NCBI RefSeq assembly: GCF_002968335.2
Contig: NZ_CP134398.1
Span: 4,960,001 to 5,024,000 of the forward strand
DNA from: Mycobacterium sp. ITM-2016-00316
Lineage (GTDB): Bacteria > Actinomycetota > Actinomycetes > Mycobacteriales > Mycobacteriaceae
Direction of reading: 5' to 3'
Length of the DNA stretch: 64,000 nt
Of the stretch, positions 3,374-26,323 are shown piece after piece. The first letter of the stretch is position 1, and each line of letters opens with the position of its first letter. Under the pieces are notes generated by a model. That model saw nothing but the letters and a program-made list of their open reading frames with translations. It was not told the DNA's origin and did no database searches. The translations under genes were made by a program, and so were the position numbers.

Positions 3374-3784
3374 TCAACCCAGCTTTTCCAGAAGCGCCTG
3401 CAGCGCAGCAAGATCCGTAGCACCGAGGCGACGCAACGGTGCGGGTGCCGGGTTCTCGACGGTATCGATGACAGCGAGCAGCTCACGCCCGGCGGGGGTG
3501 AGCGACACCGTCTTGGAGCGGCGGTTGCCCGGGTCGACCTGCCGGACCACCAGACCGCGCTCCTCCAGATCGTTGACGGCCACGGTCGCGGCGGGGGCAT
3601 CGATCGTGGCAGCGGCCGCGATCTGCTTGACCGACAGCGGCTCGCGGGCCAACCGGGTGAGGATGCGAATCCTGCTGAACGGCAGACCGGTCCGGTCCAC
3701 CACGGCGCGTTTCCAGGTGTCCTGGTTGTTGATCACCGTCGACGACATCAGGCGCCAGACCTCGTCGGCCAGCTGATCAGGCAT
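3374..3784 (-). CDS. MarR-family transcriptional regulator
   Basis: The product has 136 residues. A winged helix-turn-helix occupies the middle: PLSVKQIAAAATIDAPAATV is the recognition helix region and the wing follows at RQVDPGNRRSKTVSLTPAG, a classic MarR signature. The ATG overlaps the end of the upstream efflux gene by 8 bases, so the regulator is translated from the transporter mRNA. That layout suggests autoregulation of a transporter-regulator operon, with the candidate operator just upstream of the transporter (5220-5240). The ligand is unknown. Confidence 0.88.
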   Translation of the reverse strand: MPDQLADEVWRLMSSTVINNQDTWKRAVVDRTGLPFSRIRILTRLAREPLSVKQIAAAATIDAPAATVAVNDLEERGLVVRQVDPGNRRSKTVSLTPAGRELLAVIDTVENPAPAPLRRLGATDLAALQALLEKLG

Positions 3785-20172: not shown

Positions 20173-21870
20173 TCAGAAGGGTGGTGGGTCGCTGTCGTTG
20201 TCGGCGCGTTCGAGGGCGCGTTCGAGTTGGTTGCGTGCGCGTTCGGTGTTGATGCGCTGGGCCCGGTCTTGGGCGCGGGTGCGTTGTCGGGTCGGCATCG
20301 CTTTTCGACGGGGCGCGGTGGTGTCGCGGTCGGTGTCGTCGATGAGGCTGATCGCGCGTTTTCGCGGGATGGGTGTGTCAATGTTCCAGTGCGGGAACAG
20401 AATTGCCGCTCCGGGGGCTTTCTGGTAGCTGTGCCCGGTGGGTGCGCTCCACTGGATTCGGCCGTCGGGTTTCGCTGCCGGTTCCCAACCACCGAAAGTC
20501 TTGACCAAATGATGCAGACGGCATAGCGGCGCCAAGTTGCCGGGATGCGTGGCTCCCGCCGGCCACGGGGTCAGATGATCAAGGTCGCAGCGGTGCGCGG
20601 CCCGGTTGCAACCGGGGAAGCTGCAGGTCATCGAACGCATCCGGACGAACGCGGTCAGCGCGGCCGACGGCCGGTATCGGGGTTCGGCGGGGAGATCGGC
20701 GATCTCGGCGAGGGGTTTGATGGTGGCGCCGCCGGCGACCAGCTCGGCCAGCATGGCGGCGGGGATGATGGCGCCATCGAGCATCACCCCGGGGCTGGGA
20801 TTGCACGCCGCAGGCTTGGCAGGCTGGGCGGTGGCCGCGGACTCGGAAGACTCGGTGCTGGCAGCCGGCGCGGCGGGCTCGGATGGTCCAGCGGGTTTGG
20901 ACTCCGCGGCCGGTGTCTGCGGCTCGTGTTCCGGTGCGGCCGGCTCAGTCCCCGCAGTCTCAGGGGGTTGCGGTGCGGCGGGCTCGGAGTCCGGGGTGCC
21001 CGCAGCGCCGGGCGTGCTCTGCGGCGGGCTGTCCTCACCCGCGGCCGGCACCTGGTCGGTGAGCGCATAGATGGTGATCGCGCCGGCGCGCGGATCCTTC
21101 CCGCTGCCCGCACAGCCGGCATCCCCGCACTCACAGGCCAAGCGCTCCAGCGCCGGACCGACCACCCCCAGTGCAGCCAGGGCCGCGGCACGCAGCTCCC
21201 CGCGGCGACGCGGATCACCTGGGCAGACGGTGTCGGCCAGGTCGTTGAGGCGCTGTTCGAGGATCTTCTTGTCGGTAATACGCAGCCGCCCCCAGAACGA
21301 GGCCACCCCGTTCGGGTCATCCTTGTCATCGAACTCCACATAGAGATCCTTGGCGGCCCGCCGGGAGCGCACCACGGCTTCGGGGTCAAATTTCTCCACC
21401 CACAGATCCACCGCCCCGATCAGTTGCTTCTCCGAATGCGCCCCATACTCGCCCGCCTCACCGGAAATGGCGGTGTCGATCAACACCAGCGCATCCTCGT
21501 CGACGACCAAATGCGTGCGCCAAGTGATCGCATCGATCACCGTCGCCGAGATGACTCCGGTGGCGAACAGGGCGGCGGTGCGGGGTAGCCGGTCGCGCAG
21601 GGCTTGGGCGATACGCATCTGCTTGGAGGCGGCATAGGGGTTGAGGTTGCAGGCCGCGGCGACCGCGGCTTGGGTCCACGCCCAGCCATCGATGACCTGG
21701 TGGGCAACCGTGTCATCCTCGTCATCACACTGGCGGGCCACCACTTCGCCGATCAACGCCAACCGAGCCGCAGCCGCCCTGGCCTCAGCCTGGGTCATGG
21801 TGGTGACCGCGCAGATGAGCGCCTCATCGCTCAGCTCCGCGAGTGCGCCACGATCCAAGACTTCGAACAT
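20173..21870 (-). CDS. 13E12-repeat family HNH endonuclease (DUF222)
   Basis: The 565-residue protein starts at MFEVLDRGALAELSDEAL. It has the N-terminal DUF222 helical domain, an Ala/Pro/Glu-rich insert at about residues 270-350 and an HNH nuclease domain near 440-490: CSFPGCNRAAHRCDLDHLTP followed by GNLAPLCRLHHLVKTFGG (Cys pair, DxDH and HH motif). Such genes are numerous and variable in mycobacteria and behave as mobile or selfish elements, but no terminal repeats are visible here. The ATG is inside a LexA-type box (21863-21878), and a TAGTAT -10 element seven bases upstream makes a leaderless transcript likely, so expression should follow DNA damage. Confidence 0.9.
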   Translation of the reverse strand: MFEVLDRGALAELSDEALICAVTTMTQAEARAAAARLALIGEVVARQCDDEDDTVAHQVIDGWAWTQAAVAAACNLNPYAASKQMRIAQALRDRLPRTAALFATGVISATVIDAITWRTHLVVDEDALVLIDTAISGEAGEYGAHSEKQLIGAVDLWVEKFDPEAVVRSRRAAKDLYVEFDDKDDPNGVASFWGRLRITDKKILEQRLNDLADTVCPGDPRRRGELRAAALAALGVVGPALERLACECGDAGCAGSGKDPRAGAITIYALTDQVPAAGEDSPPQSTPGAAGTPDSEPAAPQPPETAGTEPAAPEHEPQTPAAESKPAGPSEPAAPAASTESSESAATAQPAKPAACNPSPGVMLDGAIIPAAMLAELVAGGATIKPLAEIADLPAEPRYRPSAALTAFVRMRSMTCSFPGCNRAAHRCDLDHLTPWPAGATHPGNLAPLCRLHHLVKTFGGWEPAAKPDGRIQWSAPTGHSYQKAPGAAILFPHWNIDTPIPRKRAISLIDDTDRDTTAPRRKAMPTRQRTRAQDRAQRINTERARNQLERALERADNDSDPPPF

Positions 21871-21878
21871 GTGTTCTA
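21863..21878. promoter_or_regulatory. LexA SOS box over the HNH start codon
   Basis: TCGAACATGTGTTCTA matches the mycobacterial SOS consensus TCGAAC-N4-GTTCGA in 11 of 12 fixed positions. It includes the ATG of the minus-strand HNH gene and abuts the -10 hexamer TAGTAT (21878-21883, minus strand). LexA control of 13E12-family genes is known in M. tuberculosis. Confidence 0.75.
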
Positions 21879-21987
21879 TACTACTCGCGCCCCCGACGCA
21901 AGTCGAAGGTAGTTTTCGCGACCTGTGGATAACTGTGCCGCCCTCGCGGACCGCAGCGACACGAGGCGGGAACCAACAACCGGGCAC

Positions 21988-22013
21988 AAAAAAGGGAAGG
22001 CCCTCGCCTTCCC
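21988..22013 (-). terminator. Intrinsic terminator hairpin reading leftward
   Basis: The minus strand reads GGGAAGGC-GAGG-GCCTTCCC, an 8-bp stem with a 4-base loop, followed by six T residues. It is a standard Rho-independent terminator for leftward transcription. No leftward gene lies upstream, so it may end an antisense or short transcript starting near the 22037-22055 palindrome, or insulate the HNH promoter. Confidence 0.6.
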
Positions 22014-22036
22014 ACTCTCAATTTATAGCGCACCCC

Positions 22037-22055
22037 CGGGCTTGCGGCAAGACCC
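22037..22055. promoter_or_regulatory. Rifamycin-associated element-like palindrome
   Basis: CGGGCTTGCGGCAAGACCC matches in 17 of 19 positions the rifamycin-associated element consensus as I recall it (GGGGCTTGCGGCAAGCCCC). The symmetry extends outward to CACCC (22031) and GGGTG (22060). It lies 60 bases before the glycosyltransferase start. RAEs precede rifamycin-induced resistance genes such as rgt, rph, rox and helR in actinobacteria. Confidence 0.7.
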
Positions 22056-22115
22056 GGGTGATGCCGGAAAATCGCTCGCCTGAAAGGCAATTCACCACAT
22101 CAGGGGGGCTACACC

Positions 22116-23297
22116 ATGCGATTTCTGCTCTACACATTCGGTTCACGCGGGGACATCGAGCCGCTGCTGGCGCTGGCGCTCGAACTACAGAACCAGGGTG
22201 CGGAAGCCCTGGTCTGCGCACCGCCGGACTTCACCGAACTGCTCACGGCAGCGGGCGTCCCGATGGTGCCGACCGGCCCGTCGGTGCGCGAGCTGGTGCA
22301 CGTCCAGAAGGCCACACACAAGGACGCTCCGGCGCTCGCCGCCGCTTTGGTGGCCACCCAGTTCGGGACGCTCGAACCAGCACGAACGTGTGACACCATC
22401 GTCGCGACCGGTTTGATGCCCGCCGGGATGCGCTCGGTCGCCGAACTGCTCGACCTGCCCTACCGGTGCGTGATGTTCACCCCACAGGTGCTGCCGTCTC
22501 CGGACTACCGCCCGCTGCCGCGACCGGGTACACCGTTGCCCGGGGACGAGACCGACAACCAGGTGCTGTGGGATCTGGACGCCGAGAAGGTCAACGCGCT
22601 CTACGGGCCGGCGCTGAACGAACACCGAGAAGCGAGGGGCCTGGCACCGGTTGACAACGTCCGCGACCACACGTTCACCCACACCCCGTGGCTGGCGTCC
22701 GATCCGGTGCTGAGCCCGCTGCACGAGCATCCCGGTTACGACGTCGTACAGACCGGCGCCTGGATCGTGCCCGATGAGCGCCCGCTGGCACCCGATCTGG
22801 AGGCCTTCCTCGATGCCGGTCCGCCGCCCGTCTACGTCGGCTTCGGCAGTGTGACGGCCCCCGAGCGGGCCGCCGAGGTGGCCATCGAGGCGATCCGGAC
22901 GCACGGCCGGCGGGTGCTGATCGGCAGCGGCTGGGCCGGCCTGACCGCGTCCGCCCCGGACTGTCTCGTCATCGGCGAGGTCAACCAGCAGGCGCTGTTC
23001 CCGCGGGTGACCGCGGTGGTGCATCACGGCGGTGCGGGCACCACGACGGTGGCGGCGCGGGCCGGCGCCCCCCAGGTGGTGATTCCGCAGATCGTCGATC
23101 AGCCCTACTGGGCAGGCCGGGTCGCCGACCTCGGCATCGGGGTGGCGCATCCCGACCCGACGCCGACCGTCAACTCACTCACGGAGGCGCTTAGGCTGGT
23201 ACTGACCCCCGAGACCCGAAACAGAGCGATCGCCGTGGCCGGCGTCATTCGCACCGACGGGGCGGCAATGGCCGCAGGGACGCTGCTGGGAGCATGA
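22116..23297 (+). CDS. GT1-family glycosyltransferase (macrolide/UGT type; possible rifamycin glycosyltransferase)
   Basis: The 393-residue protein is a GT-B fold family 1 enzyme. The N-terminal domain starts MRFLLYTFGSRGDIEPLLAL with the usual acceptor-side GSRGD loop; the C-terminal donor-binding domain carries the signature VVHHGGAGTTTVAARAGAPQ followed by VVIPQIVDQPYWAGRV at about residues 300-335. It transfers a sugar from a nucleotide donor to a small lipophilic acceptor. It is the first gene behind the RAE-like palindrome and its stop overlaps an upstream alternative helD start (ATGA). Related proteins modify GPLs, macrolides or rifamycins; the context with HelD favours rifamycin, but the acceptor is not proven. 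Confidence 0.85.
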   Translation: MRFLLYTFGSRGDIEPLLALALELQNQGAEALVCAPPDFTELLTAAGVPMVPTGPSVRELVHVQKATHKDAPALAAALVATQFGTLEPARTCDTIVATGLMPAGMRSVAELLDLPYRCVMFTPQVLPSPDYRPLPRPGTPLPGDETDNQVLWDLDAEKVNALYGPALNEHREARGLAPVDNVRDHTFTHTPWLASDPVLSPLHEHPGYDVVQTGAWIVPDERPLAPDLEAFLDAGPPPVYVGFGSVTAPERAAEVAIEAIRTHGRRVLIGSGWAGLTASAPDCLVIGEVNQQALFPRVTAVVHHGGAGTTTVAARAGAPQVVIPQIVDQPYWAGRVADLGIGVAHPDPTPTVNSLTEALRLVLTPETRNRAIAVAGVIRTDGAAMAAGTLLGA

Positions 23298-23326
23298 TAC
23301 ATACCGTACGAAATAACAAGGGGCAC

Positions 23327-25519
23327 ATGACAACTCAGGACTATCAGGCGGAACTAGAGGCCGAGCGCGAATACGTGGCCGCGCTGTATGACCGGCTGGA
23401 CGCCGAACGGGCGCGCGCCAAGGACCGCTACTCCGCGGCACTCAAGGGCGATATCGACAAGCAGGACGGTTCCACCCTGGTGAGCCGCGACGCCGACGTG
23501 CGCGCGCTGGGCAAAGAGGTCAGCAGGCTCGACGTGGCCGACAGCGGATTGTGCTTCGGCCAACTTGAGAGCATCGAGGGTGAGCGGTCCTACATCGGGC
23601 GGATCGGGCTGTTCGACAACGAGAACGACTACGAGCCACTGCTGCTGGACTGGCGGGCACCCGCGGCTCGGGCGTTCTACGTGGCCACCGCCGCCAGCCC
23701 GGAGAACATGCGGCGCCGGCGCCAGTTCCACACCCGCGGGCGCAAAGTCCTCGATTTCACCGACGAGGTACTGGGCCGCCCAGGACCCGATGAACCGGAC
23801 GGGTCCAGTGACGCGGCCCTGCTGGCGGCAGTCAACGCGCCGCGCACCGAGGGCATGAGCGATATCGTCGCGACGATTCAGGCCGAGCAGGACGAGATCA
23901 TCCGGCTCGATCAATCCGGGGTGCTCGTCATCGAGGGCGGTCCGGGCACCGGAAAGACGGTGGTCGCGCTGCACCGCGTCGCCTACCTGCTGTACACCCA
24001 GCGCGAACGAATGGAGCGGCACGGGGTGCTGGTCATCGGGCCCAGCCCGGCGTTCCTCAACCATGTCGGCCGGGTGCTGCCCTCGCTCGGCGAGACCAAT
24101 GTGGTCTTCATGACCACCGGCGATCTGGTCCCCGGGCTGCACACCACTGCCGAGGACACCCCGGATGCCGCGCGGGCCAAAGGTTCGTTGAAAATGCTCG
24201 AGGTCCTCAAAGCCGCCGTCGCCGACCGTCAGCGCACCCCCGAGGAGCCGCTGCCCATCAAGCTGGCCGACGTCACGGTCGAGATCAACGCCGAGGCCGC
24301 GGCCTGGGCCATCCAGGAGGCGCGCGAGGCGGGTCTGCCGCACAACGACGCCCGGGCGGTGTTCACCGACGTGATCACCTGGGTGCTCACCGAACGCGCG
24401 ATCGCACGAATCGGCAAGGGCTGGTTGACCCGTGACGACAAGCAGGCCTGGGAGCACCTACGCGCCGAACTGCTCGACGAGCTCGAAGATCACGACGCGT
24501 TCAAGGCCGCGCTGGACGAGCTGTGGCCGGAGCTGACACCGGAATCGCTGCTGGGGGCGCTCTACGAGTCCCCCGGACGGCTCGCGGCCGCTGGTGCCGA
24601 TGAGTCGTTGTGGCGACAGGACGGGCGGGCCTGGACGGTGTCGGATGTCCCACTGCTCGACGAGCTGGTGGATCTGCTGGGCGGAATCAAACCCGATGCG
24701 GCCGCGGAGAAGGAACGCCAGGAGGAGGCGGCGTACGCCGCCGGCGTGCTGGACCTGATGGTGGCCCGCGAGGACCTGATGGACGACGAGGACCATCTGA
24801 TCGCCGCCGACCTGATCGGCGCCGAGGAACTGGCCGACAGGTTTATCGAACAGGACAACCGCGAACTGGCCGAACGTGCTGCCGCGGACCGGGATTGGAC
24901 CTACCGCCACGTGGTGGTCGACGAAGCCCAGGAGCTCTCCGAGATGGACTGGCGGGTGCTGATGCGGCGCTGCCCGGCCCGGTCCTTCACCATCGTCGGC
25001 GACCTGGCGCAACGTCGTTCCGAAGCGGGTGCGCGGTCCTGGGACGCCATGCTTGCCCCGCATGTGAAAAAGCGCTGGGCCTATCGGCCGCTGACGGTGA
25101 ACTACCGCACCCCGGCGGAGATCATGGCCGTCGCCGCCGCGGTGCTGTCCGAGTTCGCGCCGGGCATTCAGCCACCGGAATCGGTGCGCTCATGCGGTGT
25201 GCAGCCGTGGTCGAAGAAGGTGAGCGAAGACGAACTTGAGATGGCCATCAAGGAATTCGTCGAAGACGAGGCTGCCCGCGAGGGCACCAGCGTGGTGATC
25301 GGGCCGCCCGGGGTGCCCGGCACGGTGCCGGCCGCGCTGACCAAGGGCCTGGAGTTCGACGCCGTCCTGGTGGTGGCACCGGAGCGGATCATCGCCGACG
25401 GTCCACGCGGAGCGGCCGAACTCTACGTGGCCCTGACCCGCGCCACGCAGCGCCTCGGCGTGCTGCACCACGGCGACCTCCCGCCAGCACTGAAAGGGCT
25501 TGACCTGAAGAACGCTTGA
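23327..25519 (+). CDS. helD: HelD/HelR-type RNA polymerase-associated ATPase
   Basis: The 730-residue protein begins MTTQDYQAELEAEREYVAAL, a coiled N-terminal arm as in mycobacterial HelD, which inserts into RNA polymerase. A UvrD/Rep-like superfamily 1 core follows with Walker A GGPGTGKTVVALHR at about residue 204 and Walker B VVVDEAQELSEMDW at about 530, then VNYRTPAEIM and the late ELYVALTRATQRLGV motif VI. HelD recycles stalled RNA polymerase; HelR members displace rifamycins. An ATG at 23294 overlaps the previous stop, but the ATG at 23327 follows an AAGGGG site and agrees with the family N-terminus. Genes on both sides are tightly packed. Confidence 0.88.
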   Translation: MTTQDYQAELEAEREYVAALYDRLDAERARAKDRYSAALKGDIDKQDGSTLVSRDADVRALGKEVSRLDVADSGLCFGQLESIEGERSYIGRIGLFDNENDYEPLLLDWRAPAARAFYVATAASPENMRRRRQFHTRGRKVLDFTDEVLGRPGPDEPDGSSDAALLAAVNAPRTEGMSDIVATIQAEQDEIIRLDQSGVLVIEGGPGTGKTVVALHRVAYLLYTQRERMERHGVLVIGPSPAFLNHVGRVLPSLGETNVVFMTTGDLVPGLHTTAEDTPDAARAKGSLKMLEVLKAAVADRQRTPEEPLPIKLADVTVEINAEAAAWAIQEAREAGLPHNDARAVFTDVITWVLTERAIARIGKGWLTRDDKQAWEHLRAELLDELEDHDAFKAALDELWPELTPESLLGALYESPGRLAAAGADESLWRQDGRAWTVSDVPLLDELVDLLGGIKPDAAAEKERQEEAAYAAGVLDLMVAREDLMDDEDHLIAADLIGAEELADRFIEQDNRELAERAAADRDWTYRHVVVDEAQELSEMDWRVLMRRCPARSFTIVGDLAQRRSEAGARSWDAMLAPHVKKRWAYRPLTVNYRTPAEIMAVAAAVLSEFAPGIQPPESVRSCGVQPWSKKVSEDELEMAIKEFVEDEAAREGTSVVIGPPGVPGTVPAALTKGLEFDAVLVVAPERIIADGPRGAAELYVALTRATQRLGVLHHGDLPPALKGLDLKNA

Positions 25520-25537
25520 GGTTTTACGGTCTGATCC

Positions 25538-26323
25538 ATGAGTGCGATCGGGCTGGCCAGCAGCAATCCCTACACCGACGATGCAGACGTCGTCACCGAG
25601 GAAGCACGCCACGCCCAAGACCTCGGATACGCCACCCTGTGGCGTTCCGGCGATCTGCCGATGGTCGCGGCGGCGGTGCGGGCCACCACCACCATCCCGG
25701 TGGCCACAGGGATCATCTCGGTGTCGCGGGTGCCGGCCGCCGACGTCATCGCGCTGCACGCCGACCTGGGACCCGGCCGGTTCGTGGCGGGAATTGGTGG
25801 CGCGCATGGCCCGCGGCCACTGCAGACCATCACCGGGTACCTCGACGAACTGGACGCGGCCGGCATCCGCGCCGGGGTGCTGGCCGCGCTCGGGCCGAAC
25901 ATGCTGGCGCTGGCGCGCGAACGTGCCGGAGGCGCGTACCCCTATTTGGTGACACCCGAGTATGTGGCGCAGGCCAGAAACCAACTCGGTGCGGACCGCA
26001 CCCTGGCGGTGCTGCAGATGGTGATTCCGCTGAGCGACCGCGACGATGCGCGCCGCGCGGCAGCCGGCCCGCTGGAGTTCCTGGCGTGGAAGCCCGGCGG
26101 CTACCGCCGAAACCTGTTGCGCCAGGGGTTCACCGAAACCGATATCGATCAGGTGAGCGACCGGCTGCTCGATGGCATCACCGCCTGGGGTGAACCGCAG
26201 CGCATCGCCGAACGCGTTGCCGAGTACCACGCGGCCGGCGCCGATCAGGTGGTGCTGCGCATCGTCGGCGCGGATGACATCGTCGCGTGGCGCTCGAAAC
26301 TTGCTGCGGCGCTGATCGATTAA
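25538..26323 (+). CDS. LLM-class flavin (F420- or FMN-dependent) oxidoreductase
   Basis: A 261-residue TIM-barrel protein of the luciferase-like monooxygenase class. The pattern begins MSAIGLASSNPYTDDADVVT with EEARHAQDLGYATLWRSGDL, then VATGIISVSRVPAADVIALH and the glycine-rich RFVAGIGGAHGPRP. It is shorter than many members (usually 280-350) because parts of the insertion are absent. The gene starts 18 bases after helD on the same strand, so it is the third gene of the probable RAE-controlled operon. It might oxidise or reduce an aromatic antibiotic, but this is a guess from context. Cofactor choice is also unknown. Confidence 0.8.
   Translation: MSAIGLASSNPYTDDADVVTEEARHAQDLGYATLWRSGDLPMVAAAVRATTTIPVATGIISVSRVPAADVIALHADLGPGRFVAGIGGAHGPRPLQTITGYLDELDAAGIRAGVLAALGPNMLALARERAGGAYPYLVTPEYVAQARNQLGADRTLAVLQMVIPLSDRDDARRAAAGPLEFLAWKPGGYRRNLLRQGFTETDIDQVSDRLLDGITAWGEPQRIAERVAEYHAAGADQVVLRIVGADDIVAWRSKLAAALID

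Follow-up and report, generated by a model that had tools for sequence, protein, structure and literature searches.

A probable rifamycin-inducible rgt-helR operon behind an extended rifamycin-associated element in Mycobacterium sp. ITM-2016-00316

Introduction

The closest described systems are the genes rgt, rox and helR, which are controlled by the rifamycin-associated element (RAE), a palindrome placed before the gene (PMC10719064), and the rifampicin alarm at helD/pps of B. subtilis (PMC12802891). As reported in the available part of PMC10719064, the RAE at M. smegmatis helD overlaps the -35 of a sense promoter, P2, a further sense start, P1, lies about 20 bp upstream of the RAE, and the tip of the primary-channel (PCh) loop is named as required for rifampicin resistance. 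According to PMC12802891 (2026), how the RAE works, and which regulator if any acts on it, has yet to be explained.

Here we describe a locus in a window of 64,000 nucleotides, the whole stretch of DNA analysed, from Mycobacterium sp. ITM-2016-00316. An initial annotation, made from the letters alone, had read it as a probable rifamycin response cassette in which an RAE-like palindrome precedes genes for a GT1 glycosyltransferase (GT), a HelD/HelR-type ATPase and an LLM oxidoreductase. In the open-licence papers searched, we found no description of an rgt-helR operon, an Rgt-HelR fusion or an antisense RAE promoter.

Results

A single tight RAE match ahead of the operon

Positions 22037-22055 of the window read CGGGCTTGCGGCAAGACCC, which matches 17/19 letters of GGGGCTTGCGGCAAGCCCC, the sequence that we take to be the RAE consensus. 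At up to three mismatches this is the single site in the window, read on both strands because it is a palindrome, compared with a mean of 0.10 sites in the shuffled window, and with the degenerate form GGGNCTTGCNGCAAGNCCC at up to one mismatch it is the sole site in the 5.99 Mb genome. Since the genome holds 21 sites at up to three mismatches versus 101 for the reversed pattern, only a tight match carries meaning; the core CTTGCNGCAAG alone is not enriched in this genome (2 versus 5 for the control). The palindrome is thus the near-match to the RAE that it had been taken for, and the tightest in the genome.

As in the RAE regulon, the 19-bp palindrome lies directly upstream of its gene, 60 bp ahead of the GT (Table 1). 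The GT stop overlaps the frame of the HelD ORF (spacing -4 nt), or precedes HelD by 29 nt if translation begins at 23327, the likely true start judging from the alignment of ORF residue 12 with the first residue of M. smegmatis HelD; the LLM gene follows after 18 nt. The three genes are therefore packed right behind the palindrome as tightly as the initial annotation had stated, and from this spacing we infer a single rgt-helR transcript from a shared promoter. Directly to the left of the operon lies a DUF222 gene (20173-21888, minus strand), presumably of the 13E12/HNH-like kind; relatives at this locus carry related genes there.

Table 1. Features of the RAE region and operon, in window coordinates.
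Feature	Position	Strand	Evidence
Predicted intrinsic terminator of antisense transcript	21988..22013	-	8-bp perfect hairpin, 4-nt loop, six U
Predicted antisense -10, TAAATT	22020..22025	-	19 bp from TTGCCG in RAE; predicted +1 near 22013; TANNNT in 104/113 loci
RAE	22037..22055	.	17/19 consensus match; genome scan; conservation before close GTs
Predicted sense -10, GAAAAT (NANNNT)	22067..22072	+	19 bp from TTGCGG (22042-22047) in RAE; 110/113 loci
Likely ribosome binding site, AGGGGGG	22102..22108	+	before GT; read from sequence
Rgt-like GT1 glycosyltransferase, 393 aa	22116..23297	+	NF000354, 467 bits; tree grouping
HelD/HelR RNA polymerase motor ATPase, 741 aa ORF	23294..25519	+	NF041465, NF041258 and 6yxu_H matches
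F420-dependent LLM oxidoreductase TIGR03620, accessory	25538..26323	+	238.7 bits, cut-off 219.8

Identity of the glycosyltransferase and of HelD/HelR

The GT matches the Rgt model NF000354 over its full length with 467.3 bits, under the equivalog cut-off of 800, and we therefore name it Rgt-like rather than Rgt. It is 90% identical to a GT of Mycolicibacterium frederiksbergense, and its nearest solved structures are vancomycin-type GTs. Given that two mycobacterial GTs without an RAE reach the same level on this model (449 and 502 bits), the sequence score leaves the substrate undecided. In a quick tree built from 95 GTs, the window's clade joins RAE-bearing Streptomyces GTs and P0159 (620 bits on the Rgt model) with an SH-aLRT of 94; this wider group also includes three RAE-less members (L152, L157 and L166), and the RAE-less mycobacterial GTs stand apart from it. 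A more careful tree joins the window's clade to four non-mycobacterial sequences, three of them RAE-bearing, with support 99/95. The Rgt-like assignment is borne out by this grouping with RAE-bearing Rgt-like GTs, in trees that do not include characterised Rgt itself.

Among the homologues, Rgt-like GTs fused to a SAM methyltransferase occur in Streptomyces (P0006, P0008, P0011-P0013, P0015; L152, L157), with no RAE found within 300 bp upstream in L152 and L157. GT homologues at 1e-80 were also met on 15 plasmid records, nine from Streptomyces and one from Microvirga.

The HelD ORF exceeds the cut-offs of both NF041465 (HelD_MYCSM; 1348 versus 1051) and NF041258 (HelR_2; 1341 versus 1100) and matches M. 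smegmatis HelD (6yxu_H) with 1175 bits. As the two models give similar scores, a purely housekeeping HelD is compatible with both. The acidic tip of the PCh loop is kept, E499/D500 corresponding to E484/D485 of M. smegmatis HelD. The family models and these two residues support the proposed HelR type and place the protein, by prediction, in HelR/HelD class II, with protection of RNA polymerase as its predicted role. It is the sole HelD found in the genome, in which a search for Arr found none.

Distribution of the RAE-rgt-helR order

Among 297 same-genus genomes, 64 carry the GT at E <=8e-82 (rows counted by hand), 164 carry HelD, and in at least 10 the two are adjacent, judged by coordinates among the HelD matches listed. 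We retrieved 30 of the 64 GT loci with flanks. All 18 closest GTs, the window's included, have an RAE of 17-18/19 located 25-80 nt upstream of the GT, and the other 12 retrieved have none; HelD lies behind the GT in nine of the 30, and a separately retrieved locus, G201, is a tenth, also with an RAE. In a class-wide search of 345 genomes, an RAE of at least 16/19 precedes the GT in 18 of 26 further loci (including four that belong to the window's genus or family), and in six a HelR like the NF041254-type one of P0016 lies behind it. For the best 80 named GT loci, the RAE is present in 60, HelD/HelR is directly downstream in 21, and both are found in 20, which span Mycobacterium, Mycolicibacterium, Nocardia, Kutzneria, Nonomuraea and many Streptomyces and comprise two HelR subfamilies (L138 and L140 of the 20 are contigs also met as G187 and G070). 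The GT starts 57-62 bp after the end of the RAE in 46/58 and 11/19 loci. An RAE (any of at least 16/19) is present at 26 of the 40 standalone mycobacterial helDs fetched and missing from 14.

The initial annotation is thus borne out in that the palindrome is conserved in relatives and the order palindrome-GT1-helD recurs, at the window's locus and beyond, in several genera. It had also supposed that drug modification and target protection in one inducible operon would be a new arrangement, which the 20 of 80 best named loci do not support, and had counted the LLM oxidoreductase as a member of the cassette. The latter gene is accessory: it is present in three of the six operons at the locus (the window, G096 and G187) and absent from G121, G034, G178 and the helD-only G199, and among the best 80 named loci it shows up in the visible flanks of L138 alone, which is the contig of G187. 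Confined to a position behind helR in the window and its closest relatives, it may act on the rifamycin naphthoquinone. The fusions and the larger promoter-like element around the RAE, both described below, had escaped the initial annotation.

Several relatives deserve separate mention. G199 (L043) retains a C-terminal GT remnant (3472-3675) and helD, and has lost the RAE. In Bosea, two Mesorhizobium and a Chloroflexi MAG (L182, L203, L211; L199), all outside Actinomycetota, Rgt-like GTs have RAEs of 16-18/19 ahead of them; the flanks of these RAEs are altered, and the RAE seems to travel there together with its gene. The contig L194 is labelled Mycobacterium sp. KBS0706, its GT groups with those of Bosea and Mesorhizobium, and the genome is possibly mislabelled.

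Probable repeated joining of rgt and helR, and Rgt-HelR fusions

The window's group consists of six operons and the relative with the GT remnant (G199). On the HelD tree, this group and a second mycobacterial operon group (G290, G070 and G295) lie among different standalone helDs, and forcing both into one clade costs 37 log-likelihood units (p-AU 0.039), a moderate rejection of the single clade. The window's group has an Rv0880-family regulator and a SpoU methylase on its flanks; neither was found in the few kb available for G290 and G295, and the contig of G070 measures 7.8 kb. The window's helD lies beside both genes, whereas six helDs of the sister group lack both in the stretches seen. 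Together, the trees and neighbourhoods suggest that rgt and helR have been brought together more than once in evolution.

In G201, an uninterrupted frame of 1202 codons between stops comprises GT and HelD, with an RAE 56 nt ahead of the GT. A search with its GT part, covering long proteins with 8000 candidates scored, gave 65 matches at 1e-20, nine of which are GT plus HelD by Pfam, one of them from Kitasatospora viridis. The ten fusions occupy four places on the GT tree and at least three on the HelD tree. Scans of seven fusions assigned three to the mycobacterial HelD type and put a fourth over the NF041254 cut-off (1295 versus 750), while the other three fall under all HelD/HelR cut-offs. 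Walker A is kept in 10/10 and the loop motif DLMDDED in 5/10; the GT motif GSRGD is absent at the start of P0007 and P0016. The presence of the RAE was looked at in G201 alone. A sequencing frameshift may account for one fusion but hardly for all ten. No relative of a fusion was found in viral contigs.

Promoter-like blocks on both sides of the RAE

We aligned upstream regions by their RAE. From 165 loci we used the 122 with enough flank and a match of at least 16/19, and 113 (87 GT, 26 HelD) were kept after those more than 85% identical were dropped. With registers picked after viewing the alignment, a sense NANNNT occupies +12..+17 in 110 of the 113 loci, its first base being C in 103, and an antisense TANNNT occupies -12..-17 in 104; TATA stands at -13..-10 in 93, compared with 1/7910 control positions. 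Both -10 hexamers lie 19 bp from TTGCGG or TTGCCG within the RAE. A second set, 26 of 30 extended-RAE loci after removal of short flanks and near-duplicates, was selected for TATA and is mostly from before helR (its L242 is L076 of the first set); here the sense NANNNT is present in 26/26 and the antisense T6, on which no selection acted, in 25/26. Two other registers were tried and set aside: the left TATA block as a sense -10, which lacks T6 and a conserved -35 at the right distance, and an antisense spacer of 16-17 bp, which gave way to the 19-bp mirror register once conservation was scored column by column.

The available part of PMC6448022 ties TANNNT promoters of M. smegmatis to more abundant transcripts than VANNNT promoters, and the predicted antisense promoter would thus be of the stronger class. 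P2 of M. smegmatis helD, as reported, agrees with the predicted sense -10. The reported P1 start is near the predicted antisense start, and it counts against the antisense reading unless its strand, or a second start, emerges on re-checking of the source. The conserved blocks indicate that the RAE may serve two divergent promoters as a joint -35, with antisense transcription halting at once.

Of 340 class genomes, 124 contain the pattern TATA-N10-RAE, the window's own genome (G000) having one site, and the reversed control had no match among the rows listed for these genomes. Of 30 sampled sites, 21 lie before HelR and four before rifampin monooxygenase (three over the cut-off); the others are one rph-like gene (795 bits, cut-off 999, in an ORF cut by the locus end), one GT, two GT-like frames recognised by eye and one site without assignment. 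The one match in viral contigs has no ORF behind it and was taken as chance.

A predicted hairpin-terminator on the antisense strand

The predicted antisense RNA in the window is GGGAAGGCGAGGGCCUUCCCUUUUUU, and positions 21984-22013 fold at -16.7 kcal/mol (z -3.22). A perfect stem of at least 7 bp ending at -28..-21 is found in 40 of the 113 loci (35/87 GT, 5/26 HelD), compared with 0.84% of shuffles; the commonest end point is -24 (26 of the 40). No stem position has a fixed pair type, and there are 20 different 7-nt arm ends, some merely shifted; the hairpin sequence varies yet pairing is kept in part of the homologues. Past the hairpin, the antisense strand has a T-rich tract (4.8 of 8, background 1.35). 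Without stem selection, the antisense RNA window has a mean z of -1.85, with 58/113 below -1.5, versus -0.25 and 17/113 for the control; the HelD loci fold more weakly (10/26 below -1.5). The second set has the perfect stem in 7/26 loci, and with 40/113 in the first we consider an antisense terminator common, not universal.

Discussion

We believe, with a probability of about 85%, that this locus is a rifamycin-inducible rgt-helR resistance operon with an RAE-centred switch of some 75-110 bp. Conservation, family models and recurrent linkage support the rifamycin-response reading of the initial annotation; the divergent-promoter switch, deduced from conservation, is the less certain part of the explanation. 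In favour of the operon stand the RAE before the 18 closest GTs, the window's among them, and the extended RAE before helR, rifampin monooxygenase and rph-like genes elsewhere. Against it stand the GT score under the Rgt cut-off, the vancomycin-type nearest structures, the loss of the RAE and most of the GT with retention of helD in G199, and the 14 of 40 standalone helDs without an RAE of at least 16/19.

In our model, the RAE region would raise transcription when a rifamycin is present, as is in print for other RAE genes. The Rgt-like enzyme would then glycosylate and so inactivate free drug, and HelR would dock on RNA polymerase and displace the drug through its primary-channel loop, as reported for relatives whose key residues are kept here. 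With both proteins made from one promoter, or fused, drug freed by HelR could be modified before it rebinds. The recurrent linkage supports this logic of co-expression; a direct hand-off of drug from HelR to the GT is speculation.

As for the switch, the -35 hexamers supplied by the RAE would overlap, one serving a sense promoter of the weak class and the other an antisense promoter of the stronger class, from which transcription ends at once on a terminator. We tentatively propose, at a little short of even odds, that two mutually exclusive promoters in mirror positions share the RAE as their -35, that the stronger antisense one, firing away from the gene and stopping within about 30 nt, could be a polymerase trap that gauges how much of the polymerase carries drug, that HelR may join the switch, and that the GT-motor fusions have arisen more than once as a dual-action protein. 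Competition between the divergent promoters alone was dropped as the means of induction, since a drug-arrested antisense polymerase would block the sense promoter rather than free it; what is missing could come from a factor that binds the palindrome, or from HelR if it clears stalled polymerase.

Of comparable standing, with a chance approaching one in two, is the view that an unknown rifamycin-responsive transcription factor binds the RAE and that the flanking blocks are sense promoters P1 and P2, with no antisense promoter. The two sense promoters reported for M. smegmatis helD (PMC10719064, available part) fit this, as does the restriction of the perfect stem to a minority of loci in both sets; the palindrome arms are conserved as for a protein-binding site (R2, R3, R17 and R18 at 0.96-1.00), a figure inflated by the choice of loci through their RAE match. 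However, the columns required for P1 hold no conserved sense -10: the left block lacks the sense T6, with C at -8 in 89%, and carries the antisense TANNNT in 104/113 loci. The hairpin and T-rich tail, where present, are moreover oriented to stop leftward transcription. Given that the flanks share just 5/19 mirrored consensus letters, two of which are the A and T that define the -10, they are not simply a longer palindrome.

Two further alternatives bear on the operon itself. GT1 enzymes are often promiscuous, and the substrate that the GT glycosylates might be a cell-envelope lipid or some other compound, in which case the RAE and the neighbouring helR would reflect no more than shared stress induction; the equal Rgt-model scores of the two RAE-less mycobacterial GTs would speak for this. 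We regard it as improbable, given that the RAE precedes such GTs across many Actinomycetota and a few other bacteria, that 26 of the 30 sampled extended-RAE sites lie before HelR, rifampin monooxygenase or rph-like genes, and that the RAE-less mycobacterial GTs are set apart on the tree. It is also unlikely that the linkage is one ancestral operon, inherited and silent on functional coupling: the p-AU for a single clade of the two mycobacterial groups is only 0.039 and the GT remnant in G199 implies that losses happen, but the visible neighbours of the two groups differ, as do the standalone helDs around them on the tree, and the NF041254-type operons and the fusion lineages use other HelR proteins.

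The antisense promoter-like block is conserved within the element and often carries a terminator, and it makes the question of how the RAE senses rifamycin directly testable. That Rgt-HelR operons and fusions occur in nature suggests that drug inactivation and protection of the target are most effective in combination, which bears on environmental rifamycin resistance.

Compared with Rgt as defined by NF000354, the window's GT shares the full-length match and, by prediction, control by an RAE and differs in its score of 467 bits against a cut-off of 800; its rifamycin activity is a prediction. Like the mycobacterial HelD/HelR proteins (M. smegmatis 6yxu_H and M. abscessus HelR), the window's HelD exceeds the HelR/HelD cut-offs and has the E/D tip of the PCh loop, but its gene is the second of an operon, behind a GT. 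The RAE-controlled rgt, rox and helR, as described in the available part of PMC10719064, have the same palindrome, position before the gene and gene families; here, in contrast, two functions stand under one RAE or are fused, and the conserved element is larger, with a predicted antisense -10 that is followed by a terminator at some of the loci. The B. subtilis helD/pps alarm, to judge from the accessible portion of PMC12802891, likewise pairs a sense promoter with a stronger antisense one, and 19-bp spacers are noted for its antisense promoters. There the promoters are convergent and 39 bp apart, whereas those predicted here are divergent with a shared -35, so that the B. subtilis model does not carry over directly to the RAE.
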